Shown piece by piece: positions 8,040 through 62,735 of a stretch of DNA of 64,000 nucleotides. The stretch lies in the NCBI GenBank assembly GCA_015062655.1, contig SUUG01000011.1, forward strand, positions 1 through 64,000. Reading direction: 5' to 3'. The position numbers were made by a program, and so were the translations under genes. Every line of letters starts with the position of its first letter. Positions within the stretch are counted from its first letter, which is position 1. This stretch comes from Coriobacteriaceae bacterium (GTDB lineage Bacteria; Actinomycetota; Coriobacteriia; Coriobacteriales; Coriobacteriaceae). The notes below the pieces were generated by a model. It worked only from the letters and a program-made list of their open reading frames with translations. It did not search any database and had not been told where the DNA came from.

Positions 8040-8352
8040 ATGCTGAGCGTTCGTAATTCGGCATCTTTTCGCCCGGAAACCCCGTATTACGCACGCTCGG
8101 CACGCGGTCGACGTGCGGCACGCGATGCCGAGCGTTCACGATACGAGATCCATACGCACCGCGAGAGCGAGTTGCGAACGCTCGGCATTATGGACGCGCG
8201 GCATCGGCCCGTTGCCGCGAGCATTCGCGATTCGGCCTTTTCGAAGCGTGGAATGGGCAATTGCGAACGCTCAACGACCGGCGTGGCCTCTCGAGCGTTC
8301 GTGATTCGGCATTTTTTGCATGCGAAATGGGCAATTGCGAACGCTCGACATC
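8040..8352. repeat. Array of four family-1 palindromic units (8040-8103, 8125-8188, 8214-8275, 8291-8352)
   Basis: Repeated GAGCGTTCGTRAT...ATTRCGAACGCTC arm pairs. Confidence 0.85.
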
Positions 8353-8439
8353 TGACATGCGCTGGGGATGCGGGCACGATGCTCCACCCCCGTCAGCACG
8401 GCATGCTCGACAAGTGACAGAGACGCACGCGGAGAATAA

Positions 8440-8658
8440 TTGAGGTTGGGAGCGAAAAACGTCATGTTTTTGCAGGTTGGGAGCACGCGGTTCCCAACCT
8501 CAAGAAACATGACGCTATCTACCTCGGATTCCGTGGCAAATCACAGCAAGTGGAGTTCCCAACCTCAAAAGTTCTCCGCAAACACGGCGCTCGCGTGCAA
8601 AATGCGGAGGAGAATTGAGGACGGGAACACACCGAGTCGCTTTTTCGAGGTTGGGGTC
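8440..8658. repeat. Family-2 repeat: TTGAGGTTGGGAGC arms in both orientations
   Basis: Plus arms 8440, 8472; minus arms 8489, 8553; further degenerate plus arms 8615, 8646. Confidence 0.8.
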
Positions 8659-8700
8659 TGAACGAGGTGCTTCGAACATTCACGAACAACATCAGAATAC

Positions 8701-8832
8701 CGGGCGTTCGCAATACGAGTTCGGTCCACATCGTGAGATCGAATCACGAACGCTCGACACCGACTGACTGCAGCGAGCGTTCGTGATTCGGCGTTTTCGG
8801 CGAGAAAAATGGGCAATTTCGAACGCTCGGCA
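8701..8832. repeat. Two more family-1 palindromic units (8701-8760, 8775-8832)
   Basis: GCGTTCGCAATACGAGTT...ATCACGAACGCTCG and GAGCGTTCGTGATTCGGC...GGGCAATTTCGAACGCTCGGCATC. Confidence 0.8.
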
Positions 8833-8925
8833 TCAGCGGCATCGACGGCGACGCCGTCGCGGCGGCAGCGCGGCGGCAACGGCGTCGCAACGCCGCCACC
8901 GGCGTCGGCGCTCGCCGCGGTCCGC

Positions 8926-15029: not shown

Positions 15030-15203
15030 AGGGGGTCGGTTTGCCACAAGTCCCCGCTGTGAACGTTCGCAGCGGGGACTTGTGGCAAATCATCAGATCA
15101 CCCGGACGAAAAGACCAGGTCGTGAGCGCTCGCACCTCCTGCCGTCACCCGCATCTCGCTCAAAACCCGTTCACAGCGGGGACTTCTGTCAAACCGACCC
15201 CCT
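15030..15203. repeat. Family-3 repeat: GGGGTCGGTTTGCCACAAGTCCCCGCTGTGAACG arms
   Basis: Plus arm 15031-15063; minus arms 15064-15091 and 15168-15203. Confidence 0.8.
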
Positions 15204-30733: not shown

Positions 30734-31609
30734 CTACTCGCCCTCGGCGACGGGCGCGTACCAGACCCGGTGGTCCTCGAGCCGCATGACGGCGACCTGC
30801 CCGTGGGGAGAGCCCCCGGCGGCGGAGGCGTCGATGTCGATGCGGTCGGCCACACCGCCTGTGTCCTGGCAGGCGCCGACCTCCACCACGCGGGCCCGGC
30901 CCGACCGGTCGAGCACGGGGCCGCCCATCAGCTGCGCGAAGCCGCCGAGCACCGCGCTCGGCGTGTGGCCCGCCACCACGACCGGCCCGCGGCCGCGCGC
31001 GTCAACGAGGCCGGTCGGCGCACCCCAGAAGCGCTCGCGGATCCACAGCAGGTCCTCGGTGGCCTGCGCCTCCATCATCGGCCGCAGGCGCTCCACGCCC
31101 AAGCGCGCCGCAGCGCCAGGCGCCTCGAGCGCCATGCCAGATCCTGCGAGGTGCGCGCGGGCGGCAGCCGCGTCGATGCCCGCATGGGCGAGCAGGTAGA
31201 CGCGGCGGTCCCCCGCCTTGGCGCGGGAGGCGTAGAACTCGTCTACCACCGAGACGATGTCGAACAAGGGCAGGTTGGACGCCCAGTCCACAAGCTCGGC
31301 CGCCTGCTCGCGGGGTAGGCGATCGAGCTGCGCCAGCGTTGCCCAGCCCCCGTTGATGTCCCAGTTCCCCTGCACGGAGGCATCGCCGGTGAGAAGCGCG
31401 CCGAGCATCATGTGCTCGTGGTTGCCCATGAGCACCCGAACGTTCGGGAGGCCGCGCACGAGGTTCACCACGCCCACCGGGTCGGGGCCGCGGTCGATCA
31501 TGTCCCCCATGACGACGACGGTGTCCGCCGACCCCGGACCCGCCGCCTCGAGTGCGGCGTCGAGGGCCCGCACGTGCCCGTGGGCATCGGACGTGACGTA
31601 GGTTGCCAT
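30734..31609 (-). CDS. Metallophosphoesterase, PPP/bis(5'-nucleosyl)-tetraphosphatase-like
   Basis: MATYVTSDAHGH, VVMGDMIDRGPDPVGVVNLV, LMGNHEHMML, VVAGHTPS. Confidence 0.9.
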   Translation of the reverse strand: MATYVTSDAHGHVRALDAALEAAGPGSADTVVVMGDMIDRGPDPVGVVNLVRGLPNVRVLMGNHEHMMLGALLTGDASVQGNWDINGGWATLAQLDRLPREQAAELVDWASNLPLFDIVSVVDEFYASRAKAGDRRVYLLAHAGIDAAAARAHLAGSGMALEAPGAAARLGVERLRPMMEAQATEDLLWIRERFWGAPTGLVDARGRGPVVVAGHTPSAVLGGFAQLMGGPVLDRSGRARVVEVGACQDTGGVADRIDIDASAAGGSPHGQVAVMRLEDHRVWYAPVAEGE

Positions 31610-35600: not shown

Positions 35601-35826
35601 ACTGACGTCACTTGTACCAGTTTGACGCGGACGCCGACAAACCTCACGCCACTTGTACCAGTTTTGAGCGCAGTCCCGAGTAGACGCCGAACAAGCAACT
35701 CTCTGAGCAGGGAAAACGCTGTGCCCGTAGTCCCGTCTACTCGGCGTATCCGTAAAAACTGGTACAAGTGGCGTGAGGTTTGCGGACGACCCCGGAAAAC
35801 TGGTACAAGTGACGCAAGGTTTGCAG
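35598..35826. repeat. Family-4 four-armed palindromic element, copy 1
   Basis: CACTTGTACCAGTTT at about 35609 and 35650; AAAACTGGTACAAGTG at about 35756 and 35797; core stem CCGAGTAGACG/CGTCTACTCGG. Confidence 0.85.
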
Positions 35827-38267: not shown

Positions 38268-38410
38268 GCGCAGGGCCGTGCTCGGGACTCGCGGGGCACG
38301 TGACGCGGGGCAGCCGCGGAAGCAAGGCTCTTCGCTCGCAGACACGGACGCGAGGCTGATGCGGGGCAGCCGGAACGGCATGCGCCAGGATCGCATCGGC
38401 GCCTCGCGTT

Positions 38411-38575
38411 CACGTAGCGTTTTTCCAGAAGTGCATCGATTCACCGTCGAGTTCTTGCGAAAGTGCTCGATCCATGCACTTCCGCAAGAATAGTACACGT
38501 CCTGAACAGGAGCTTCTCTGTGCTTGTTTCCTTCTGCCGATTTCTGCGATGCACTTCCGCAAAAACGCTACCTGA
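38411..38575. repeat. Family-5 four-armed palindromic element
   Basis: Outer arms GTAGCGTTTTTCCAGAAGTGCATCGA / GCGATGCACTTCCGCAAAAACGCTAC; inner hairpin TTCTTGCGAAAGTGC/GCACTTCCGCAAGAA. Confidence 0.8.
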
Positions 38576-38787
38576 AAGGCGCCAAGCGCTGCAGATGTCC
38601 CGCGGATCACGGTCGCGCCGGCCGATTTCAGACCCCGGCACCCGACACGATGAGACGCGACCCACCGGCCCCCGCGGGAGAAGCGGCGCCGCGAGACGAT
38701 GCCGTTCAGCCCACACCCCATAGGCCCGCGCCGCAGCAACCCGCTCACCGCCGGCTCGTCCGCGCCGGCGCGCCGCCCGGAGCTCCC

Positions 38788-43934: not shown

Positions 43935-44065
43935 AGGCAGCGGGGCGAGGGTGTCGGAGCCCGCTTGCGGTGGCATCGTGCAAGGGGCTGCGTGCGGTGG
44001 GCGCCGGGGGCGGCGGGCCCCACATTTCGCACGCAGCCGCTGCCGGCCGGGAACTGCCTGCGGGA

Positions 44066-44196
44066 GTTGCATTCTTTACGGCTTTGCACCCCGCAACGAG
44101 GGCACTCTTAGTAGTTGGGGCAAATCTGCAGGTAGAGCCGGTTGCGATTCTTACGCCTGTGTACGTCGGTGTACACAGGCGTCATTTTGTTTGAGA
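44066..44196 (+). repeat. Family-6 left inverted repeat (about 130 bp)
   Basis: GTTGCATTCTTTACGGCT (44066) and GTTGCGATTCTTACGCCTGTGTACGTCGGTGTACACAGGCGTCATTTTGTTTGAG (44141). Confidence 0.85.
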
Positions 44197-44692
44197 AAAA
44201 GGTGCATAGCCGTGCAAACGGCAACCGAGCTTTGGCGCTCGACGGGACAGAGACCTCGCGCTGCAGCCGAAGCCTCGACATATGGCGGCCCGCCCCCATG
44301 CAATGTGCCCGGGCTCTCAACAGGCTGGGGCTGCCTCGCGCAAAGGACCGGCTCAACGCGCTCGTCATATCGCACGCGGCCCCCTCGGCCCCATATGTGT
44401 TCACCTCATGAAGGCTTCGACGCGCCCGCGGCACCCGCCTGCCGGGGCGCGACGCCACCCCGGCAGCATGCGGTGTGAGGCGAGTTGCGGCAACGCTCAA
44501 CGATGAGCTGGTCTTTCATCCTTCATCGAAATAGAATGAGGGTGCTTTTAATACTGGAAGTTTTCAACAAGATCACCTAGAACAAACGCTCGCCTCACCA
44601 TGAGCTCAAATGCTTCTGACGGGAAGCCGACGCAGGTTTCCACACTTCAGGTTCTCAGCCCAATGCATCCTCTTATCTGCGATGATGGAGCT

Positions 44693-45676
44693 ATGAGCAT
44701 CATATTCTCACATAGCACCGCCCGCTCCTACCATCGGTCCCCTTGGCGGTCTGATGCCGGGGAGCTTGCGCTCCGCCAGCGAGCGCAAGCTCCCCAAGGG
44801 GCGTTGTATAGATCAGATCTCATCGAGGCTCGAAACGCCCTCGCAGCATCCGGGGTGCCCGGTGAGAGCCTTGAGATCGTCGATGTGCTCGTGCGCTCCG
44901 CCAACAGGCGCCGGCAGCTCGCGGGCGCCCGCGCGCACGTGCTGGGAGGCGAGCTCGAGGCCGACGCGCTGCTGCAGATCGCGCCCGGCGTCCTCGTCAC
45001 CGATATCCGTCTCACCGCCCTGCTCTCCGCCCAAGACCTCACCTTCCTCGAGCTCGTCGAATACTATTGCGAGATCTGCGGCGCCTACGACCTGCCCAGC
45101 GAACCGGAAACGAGCTATCGGGAGCGCGCGCCCCTGACGACCGTCGCCGAGTTGTCGGCATACTTCGAGCGCATGGCGAACCGGGTGCGCGGCTCTAAAA
45201 CCGCGCGGCGCGCCCTGCTATACGTCCGCGAGGGCCTCCGCTCCCCGCTCGAGACCGCCATGGTTCTGATGCTCGTGCTCCCCCGGGCGATGGGAGGGTT
45301 CGGGATGCGGAGCCTCCTCACCGACCACCGCCTCGAGATCCCGCCCCACGCACGCCACCTCACGCGTCGCTCCTTCCTCGTATGCGACGCCTTCCTCCCG
45401 GCATCCCGGATCGATTTCGAGTACCACGGCTTCGGGCATGACGAGGAGGAGCAGGCGACCATCGACGACGAGCGCGTCAACACGCTGCGCGCCATGGGGA
45501 TCCGGGTCATCGCCATCAGGCGCTGGGCGTTCTTCGACGGCGCCGCCTTTCGCCGCTTCGCCGGCGCCGTCATCCGCGAGGCGAAGATCGCCCGCACGCG
45601 CCTGCCGCATCGGTTCGAACAGCGGCAGGACGAGCTGAGACGCTTCGTGCTGCGCCGATATCTCTCCGATACCTGA
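44693..45676 (+). CDS. PD-(D/E)XK (DUF559/Vsr-like) protein with AbiEi-like N-terminal region; upstream start at 44600 possible
   Basis: ASRIDFEYHGFGHDEEEQATIDDERVNTLRAMGIRVIAIRRW matches the DUF559/Vsr-type pattern (v)E(Y)xGxxH..D..R...L...G..vi. Confidence 0.65.
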   Translation: MSIIFSHSTARSYHRSPWRSDAGELALRQRAQAPQGALYRSDLIEARNALAASGVPGESLEIVDVLVRSANRRRQLAGARAHVLGGELEADALLQIAPGVLVTDIRLTALLSAQDLTFLELVEYYCEICGAYDLPSEPETSYRERAPLTTVAELSAYFERMANRVRGSKTARRALLYVREGLRSPLETAMVLMLVLPRAMGGFGMRSLLTDHRLEIPPHARHLTRRSFLVCDAFLPASRIDFEYHGFGHDEEEQATIDDERVNTLRAMGIRVIAIRRWAFFDGAAFRRFAGAVIREAKIARTRLPHRFEQRQDELRRFVLRRYLSDT

Positions 45677-45749
45677 TTTGCTGATACTTCGTTTGTGCAA
45701 GCAGTCCTTGCGGCGTGAAGGCTATTTGCGTTTCTTTCGGATATGTATC

Positions 45750-45884
45750 TTTTTCCTCAACAAAATGACCCCTGTGTACAGCGAGGCACACAGGGGTCAA
45801 AAACGCAACTTGGCTGAGCAGGCCATTCTTACTCGCTACTCGCAATGCGCTCGTGCGGCTATACAGAGCCGTAAAGATTGCAAC
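45750..45884 (-). repeat. Family-6 right inverted repeat (about 130 bp)
   Basis: CCTCAACAAAATGACCCCTGTGTACAGCGAGGCACACAGGGGTCAAAAACGCAAC (45755) and AGCCGTAAAGATTGCAAC (45867-45884). Confidence 0.85.
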
Positions 45885-46007
45885 CAAGAGGCCGCCGACG
45901 CGCCCGCCGCAGCCGCCGCAGCACCGGCGGTGGCCGTCGCAGCAGCATCTCCGCCCGCAGTCTCGACGCCAGCCCCGACCGCCGCAACCGCAAGCGCCGC
46001 CGCCGCA

Positions 46008-58044: not shown

Positions 58045-58282
58045 CTGATACAAAAGTATCGCCTCCTGTACCAGTTTGAGCGCAGACCAAACAAACCTTG
58101 CGCCTCTTGTACCAGTTTTCGTGCCCCGCGGCAGTACACAGAAAATCGTCAACGCCCTCACCAGGCATTATTTTCGCTTGATGAGGCCGTGTACTGAGCC
58201 GGACGCCCAAAACTGGTACAAGAGGCGCAAGGTTTGCGCGGCCGCACCCCAAACTGGTACAAGTGGCGGTAGTTTTGCGCAG
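58045..58282. repeat. Family-4 four-armed palindromic element, copy 2
   Basis: CCTGTACCAGTTT (58065), CTTGTACCAGTTTT (58106); AAAACTGGTACAAG (58209), AAACTGGTACAAG (58250); core stem CAGTACAC/GTGTACTG. Confidence 0.85.
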
Positions 58283-62671: not shown

Positions 62672-62735
62672 ATGCCGAGCGTTCGTAATACGGCATTTTT
62701 CTCGAGTGAGAGGCCGGATTACGAACGCTCAGCAT
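62672..62735. repeat. Family-1 palindromic element
   Basis: ATGCCGAGCGTTCGTAATACGGCATTTTT...CCGGATTACGAACGCTCAGCAT. Confidence 0.85.

Follow-up and report, generated by a model that had tools for sequence, protein, structure and literature searches.

MITEs, Correia/NEMIS, RUP and ERIC are short intergenic repeats that have terminal inverted repeats and no coding capacity. In REP-RAYT systems, dispersed repeats accompany a RAYT gene that is single-copy and housekeeping-like (PMC8266576). P. fluorescens SBW25 has three RAYTs, and each of them lies next to a REPIN group of its own (PMC3116915). TIRtrons consist of RAYT-like genes with long TIRs at their flanks, and these TIRs form families (PMC3733652).

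Here we describe, in a gut Collinsella, a locus from a 64,000-nucleotide stretch of DNA (the window) that resembles REP-RAYT systems in several respects. A single-copy enzyme gene is flanked by its own dispersed palindromic family (as seen for three of the three nearest paralogues and at 15/36 nuclease loci), several such enzymes occur per genome, each with its own family, and the repeats are dispersed, extragenic and arranged in inverted pairs (39, 16 and ~15 loci). The enzyme is also inherited like a housekeeping gene, and the repeats differ between species. The enzyme itself, however, is a DUF559/Vsr-like PD-(D/E)XK nuclease with an invariant E..D..E, whereas RAYT is a Y1 HUH tyrosine transposase. 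The units measure approximately 150-165 bp and combine terminal repeats, a core and a hairpin, whereas a REP is a 20-40 nt hairpin tagged GTAG (or CGTC), and the host belongs to the Actinomycetota, whereas the GTAG survey names other phyla. Because its enzyme is not a Y1 HUH protein, the Collinsella system is not a member of REP-RAYT, and the likeness is one of anatomy and distribution. TIRtrons similarly place a gene between long inverted repeats, and these repeats make up a dispersed family of moderate abundance as well, but their enzyme is a tyrosine transposase and no DUF559-type nuclease has been described there. The Collinsella units are short, intergenic, terminally inverted and noncoding, as are MITEs and other small bacterial repeats; unlike these, every family goes with a particular nuclease gene and combines a fixed length with a conserved core, and no insertion-sequence parent was found. 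In the open-access literature, we found no paper linking DUF559 to palindromic repeats or reporting such repeats in Collinsella.

A nuclease gene lies between two inward-facing repeat units

Features of the nuclease locus and related units in the window are as follows.

44064..44227, + strand: family A unit, left copy, 164 bp (covariance model 156 bits, E 6e-36; alignment; ssDNA fold z = -4.8), with terminal inverted repeats GTTGC..TTACGGCTTTGCAC / GTGCATAGCCG..GGCAAC, core CTGCAGGTA and a central hairpin
44128..44135, + strand: core of the left unit, TGCAGGTA, conserved; all families share the consensus GCAGGTCA
44153..44182, + strand: central hairpin of the left unit, then CATTTTGTTT; terminator-like, reads inward; compensatory changes across copies
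44693..45676, + strand: DUF559/Vsr-like nuclease gene (longest ORF from 44600), from ORF, homologue alignment, profiles and structure model
45723..45886, - strand: right-hand family A unit, 164 bp, in opposite orientation to the left copy (covariance model 131 bits, E 1e-29; ssDNA fold z = -3.3)
45766..45799, - strand: hairpin at the centre of the right unit, with TTTTGTTGAG as its tail; resembles a terminator that reads inward
38409..38576, - strand: dispersed family B unit, motif GCGGAAGTGCATCG (the family flanking the C15 paralogue); 30-nt arms, 90%; direct motif copies 75 apart
8430..8579, - strand: dispersed family C unit, motif TTGAGGTTGGGAGC (the family flanking the C11 paralogue), from motif and architecture scans

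The first-pass annotation had read positions 44066-45884 as a compact 1.8 kb mobile unit. The 17/18 inverted match that it reported between 44066-44083 and 45867-45884 is correct, and the ORFs of the interval include no transposase gene. The inward similarity of the two ends is also real but does not fade after approximately 130 bp; on each side it stops at the edge of a complete 164-bp unit, 44064-44227 (+) and 45723-45886 (-). The outer arms (44066-44114 / 45836-45884) match at 71% over 49 nt, and the inner arms (44141-44212 / 45738-45809) at 81% over 72 nt. The best inverted repeat between the 600-bp flanks of the nuclease gene scores 37, against a median of 11 and a 99th percentile of 17.5 among 302 control genes, and both units fold better than every shuffle. 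The larger claim of a 1.8 kb mobile unit is not supported, since each end is an independent 164-bp element with 39 copies and the gene keeps the same neighbours across most Collinsella. The repeats recur elsewhere both with and without a DUF559/Vsr-type gene. The dispersed entity is the 164-bp unit, not a unit-gene-unit block.

Family A units are dispersed, locked in length and share a covarying hairpin

A search of the window's own assembly (a 2.07 Mb draft in 26 contigs) gave 34 matches to the 150-bp left end. The 27 copies that were extracted and aligned are nearly always exactly 164 nt long and only ~70% alike. Genome-wide, a covariance model identifies 39 full-length family A units, all 163-164 nt, of which the window holds 2; the exact pattern GAGTA-N14-GCAGGTCA is too insensitive as a unit search. 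None of the family A units in this genome overlaps a called gene, and many sit between convergent genes. Where units lie within 2 kb of each other, neighbours are oppositely oriented in 15/15 cases. At E<=0.001 the same covariance model gave no family A unit in 43 of the 44 further Collinsella genomes; matches came only from G060, Collinsella vaginalis Marseille-P2666.

Each family A unit comprises, in order, a left terminal repeat, a spacer with GAGTA, the core GCAGGTCA, a central hairpin, a T-rich tail and a right terminal repeat. The terminal inverted repeats span ~24 nt (GTTGC.TTTCTTACGGCT.TGCAC, with the ends also written GTTGC..ACGGCTTTGCAC). The central hairpin is a second motif copy paired with its own inverted copy, and since the terminal repeats and both hairpin arms carry the motif, a unit holds up to four copies of it. 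Across family A copies, 82% of cells in the terminal stem and central hairpin are paired, and the 24-nt terminal stem is paired in 80%. Changes on both sides with pairing kept occur in 76 cells; shuffles give 43 +/- 6, with 0/500 reaching the observed value, and slid pairings give 12-27. In 7-8 copies, GG/CC at hairpin positions 92-93 has become CC/GG on both arms and the terminal repeats retain ACGGCT, which argues that the hairpin itself is maintained. The unit alignment has no GTAG tag at the hairpin foot of the 164-nt units, and a search of Rfam with the units gave no match. Integron attC-like sites were rejected by inspection because the family A end motif does not fit GTTRRRY.

A whole-genome scan found 68 near-matches to the terminal repeat, all within units except a few stray or tandem fragments. 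An autonomous transposon or parent with family A ends was rejected on this basis, as the scan gave nothing but units and stray fragments, with no bigger element of this kind in the assembly. The hypothesis that unit pairs carry cargo was set aside, since the sequence between them is mostly short intergenic DNA, a decayed beta-glucoside operon or a tRNA-like gene. The decayed operon lies between two family A units at C5:65045-66917, where fragments can be read as parts of an RpiR-type regulator, of a beta-glucosidase and of a PTS transporter; the putative tRNA gene is inside an inverted unit pair at C14:51814-52461. Adjoining another family A unit (C8:32087-32312), terminal-repeat-like fragments form a tandem array (GTTGCGTTTCTTCCGGCTTTGTACGTCGCG).

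The window contains other repeats as well. One palindromic repeat of very high abundance, GAGCGTTCGTRATTCGGC followed ~36 bp on by its inverse, occurs at 2695-2750, 8044-8880 and 62676-62730 and is present in most genome stretches examined. At 35606-35812 and 58060-58266, and also at C10:243.7 kb and C11:23.7 kb, four copies of GCCACTTGTACCAGTTTT (+,+,-,-) occupy ~206 bp, a layout like that of the nuclease-linked units with a different spacing. The palindromic repeat AAGTCCCCGCTGTGAACG at 15041-15185 has a second copy near C10:231 kb.

The enclosed gene encodes a DUF559/Vsr-like nuclease

The ORF at 44600-45676 encodes 358 aa. Homologues begin 'MSIV.SH.TA', which makes the ATG at 44693 the likely start; the product is then 327 aa plus a stop, in agreement with the 328-aa protein proposed earlier. 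A DUF559/Vsr-type nuclease gene truly lies between the inverted repeats, as the first-pass annotation held: the family matches the DUF559 profile, and its E..D..E..D..R residues are conserved. In 358-aa numbering, E218, D263, E274, D289 and R292 are invariant among 21 homologues. PF04480 (Pfam DUF559) matches 14/21 family members (best 6.6e-5), and MTES_1575 is also matched by the family; a profile scan with the window protein alone gave no match. Activity had been doubted because a His replaces the canonical Asp, but this position (His276) is variable in the family (H/N/Q/D/S), and the His is thus no sign of inactivity.

Among solved structures, a profile search picked up I-Bth0305I, a Vsr-like homing endonuclease (3r3p, E 0.055), and 3hrl, which is DUF559-like (E 0.12). 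An AlphaFold model of the nuclease has a pLDDT of 85 and a pTM of 0.84; Foldseek searches with this model gave no match at E<0.001, and the same two structures came out as weak matches (E>0.1), 3r3p with a TM by target of 0.59 and 3hrl with 0.56. The C-terminal nuclease fold may resemble those of I-Bth0305I and 3hrl; I-Bth0305I is also a mobility-linked endonuclease. Unlike these proteins, the nuclease described here has no associated intron, carries a large N-terminal region without known match, and is accompanied by dispersed palindromic units. The nuclease locus had no match in a phage collection, and defence-system models gave no meaningful match.

Each of three nuclease paralogues has its own repeat family

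Three paralogues are paired with three families in one genome, namely the C10 gene with family A, the C15 gene with family B and the C11 gene with family C, and the paralogues are only 44-45% identical. Units with other motifs were found by scanning for the four-motif architecture. The C15 paralogue (C15:2749-3750) is enclosed by inward-facing family B units at C15:2494(+) and 3807(-) with motif GGAAGTGCATCG, and the C11 paralogue (C11:30244-31227) by inward-facing family C units at C11:29797-29968(+) and 31345-31519(-) with motif GAGGTTGGGAG. These are the two nearest paralogues, and one copy of each of their families lies in the window. Dispersed loci number 39 for family A, 16 for B and ~15 for C genome-wide, and families B and C share with family A a near-fixed length and the core GCAGGTCA. 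A more distant paralogue, at C26:128616, has no such flanking units.

Comparable arrangements are seen in other species. The AK_207A nuclease has motif GAGTTGTGAACG on both sides. G014 carries its own motif, GGAACTTATGAACGA, around its own nuclease gene, with 11 matches, and the motif hardly occurs in the other genomes. In C. intestinalis one flank was found at the nuclease gene and the motif has 17 matches genome-wide; in the C. aerofaciens group the motif was found only as the flanking pair. In the C. tanakaei group (L040, L041, L281), an element with near-perfect ~35-47 bp terminal inverted repeats (CAACTTGCTAGATTTGCACTTTTCGGGGGTTTCG...) lies upstream of a nuclease homologue, on one side only.

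The nuclease-side pair persists and dispersed copies turn over

Homologues of the nuclease are present in 34/41 related genomes. The order exonuclease - nuclease - P-type ATPase is conserved across most Collinsella, including species that lack family A repeats. The gene keeps its place and is accordingly not cargo. The C. vaginalis ortholog is 57% identical and lies between the same two neighbours, flanked by units at C19:43790-43954 (+) and 45685-45849 (-) whose positions and relative orientation are as in the window. These units have the motif GAGCTATGCATAG and ends TTTGCATTT, share the architecture and core of family A, and are length-locked at 164-166 nt, with a less perfect hairpin and a weaker T-run. 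The examined part of the C. vaginalis genome contains at least 26 units, all with motif GAGCTATGCATAG; compared with the window units, the motif has thus changed in step across all copies within a genome.

At most of the family A sites that can be compared, C. vaginalis has collinear flanks and no unit, as at C7:12947/13149, C26:12339/12572, C10:241280/241813 and C10:226103/226361. C18:65949 is a second site with a unit in both genomes. The shared flanking pair and the unit-free dispersed sites together indicate that the nuclease-side pair persists as dispersed copies turn over. Target duplications and exact insertion junctions are unreadable at the unit-free sites because the intergenic DNA is too diverged. 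The C. vaginalis ortholog (L167 9294-10145) has an in-frame stop near the C-terminus, though its units persist, and the AK_207A/G021 ortholog (L032) has one in-frame TGA. These single stops suggest that the enzyme may be decaying there while units persist.

Flanking inverted repeats are enriched at nuclease loci

We compared 36 nuclease loci, one per orthologous group as far as judged and ranging from Collinsella to Nocardioides, with 302 non-family control genes from unit-bearing or orthologous regions. At an inverted-repeat score cut-off of >= 16.5, flanking inverted repeats are present at 15/36 nuclease loci and 5/302 control genes (odds ratio 42, Fisher p = 1.3e-12), so the link between repeat and gene goes beyond chance. 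Positive loci come from many lineages and include Enorma massiliensis, a Gordonibacter and Nocardioides oceani, where inspection reveals palindromic elements; that of Gordonibacter has CCTGGTCGC at the expected core position. Approximately 58% of the tested nuclease loci have no long flanking inverted repeat.

Discussion

The locus is probably the home of a one-nuclease/one-repeat-family system of REP-RAYT (REPtron)-like design, in which a PD-(D/E)XK nuclease replaces the Y1 HUH transposase. A single-copy nuclease gene would sit between two inward-facing copies of its own 164-bp family, the other copies being intergenic and without a gene. The nuclease would recognise the family motif, which each terminal repeat and each arm of the central hairpin can carry, and would cut at or beside it; repair or re-insertion may then place copies of the unit elsewhere in intergenic DNA. 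The gene for the enzyme would stay put and be vertically inherited, with motif and enzyme changing together. We infer motif recognition, cleavage and nuclease-dependent spreading from the association of repeats with nuclease genes. Several points count against this explanation: the many nuclease loci that lack long flanking inverted repeats, the C. aerofaciens group with its motif confined to the flanking pair, the in-frame stop in a C. vaginalis ortholog whose units persist, the unreadable junctions and the weak Foldseek matches. The hairpin could also be retained for transcription termination.

Host service is the starting point of one alternative: the units would act as transcription terminators or as nucleoid/repair sites, the DUF559 protein would be a domesticated sequence-specific factor that binds them, and their spread would be historical or recombination-driven. 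The hairpin and T-run do read as a terminator, inward from both units, and the units are intergenic and often lie between convergent genes, with a length lock and covariation that suggest selection on each copy. Against this, C. vaginalis lacks a unit at the orthologous position for most sites, which means that individual sites are not conserved, and the C. vaginalis hairpin is less perfect with a weaker T-run; we regard this account as unlikely. Less plausible still is that the units are MITEs which an ordinary transposase moves in trans, and that insertion preference or regulatory co-option has brought them near nuclease genes. Although terminal inverted repeats, small size, intergenic location and presence/absence between species would all suit MITEs, near-matches to the terminal repeat are confined to units bar a few fragments, and the assembly holds no larger element with such ends. 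Three different families would each have had to choose a different nuclease paralogue, and the strict length, conserved core and covarying hairpin are unexpected for decayed MITEs.

The original proposal of a compact ~1.8 kb mobile element, with long terminal inverted repeats and its own nuclease as mobility enzyme, now appears very improbable. In its favour, inward-facing inverted units border the gene in the window, in C. vaginalis and in AK_207A, and such units also border two paralogues. Those ends are nonetheless complete elements, present in 39 copies and nearly always without the gene, and the nuclease gene keeps the same neighbours in most Collinsella. No second unit-gene-unit block of the same family was found, and the paralogues, at 44-45% identity, have other families.

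Taking the nuclease-repeat pairing as the preferred explanation, we incline to the broader view that Actinomycetota carry domesticated mobile systems unrelated by descent to REP-RAYT, in which DUF559/Vsr-like nucleases may each maintain private, species-specific structured palindromes, with several orthogonal pairs per genome and co-evolving motifs. DUF559 proteins are widespread and unexplained, and the flanking repeat family provides a concrete candidate substrate. The three orthogonal enzyme-repeat pairs in one genome constitute a natural specificity panel, and the long-standing question of how palindromic repeats spread without a known transposase becomes directly testable. If the explanation is true, the arrangement of an immobile enzyme with dispersed palindromic repeats would have evolved a second time, with an unrelated nuclease.
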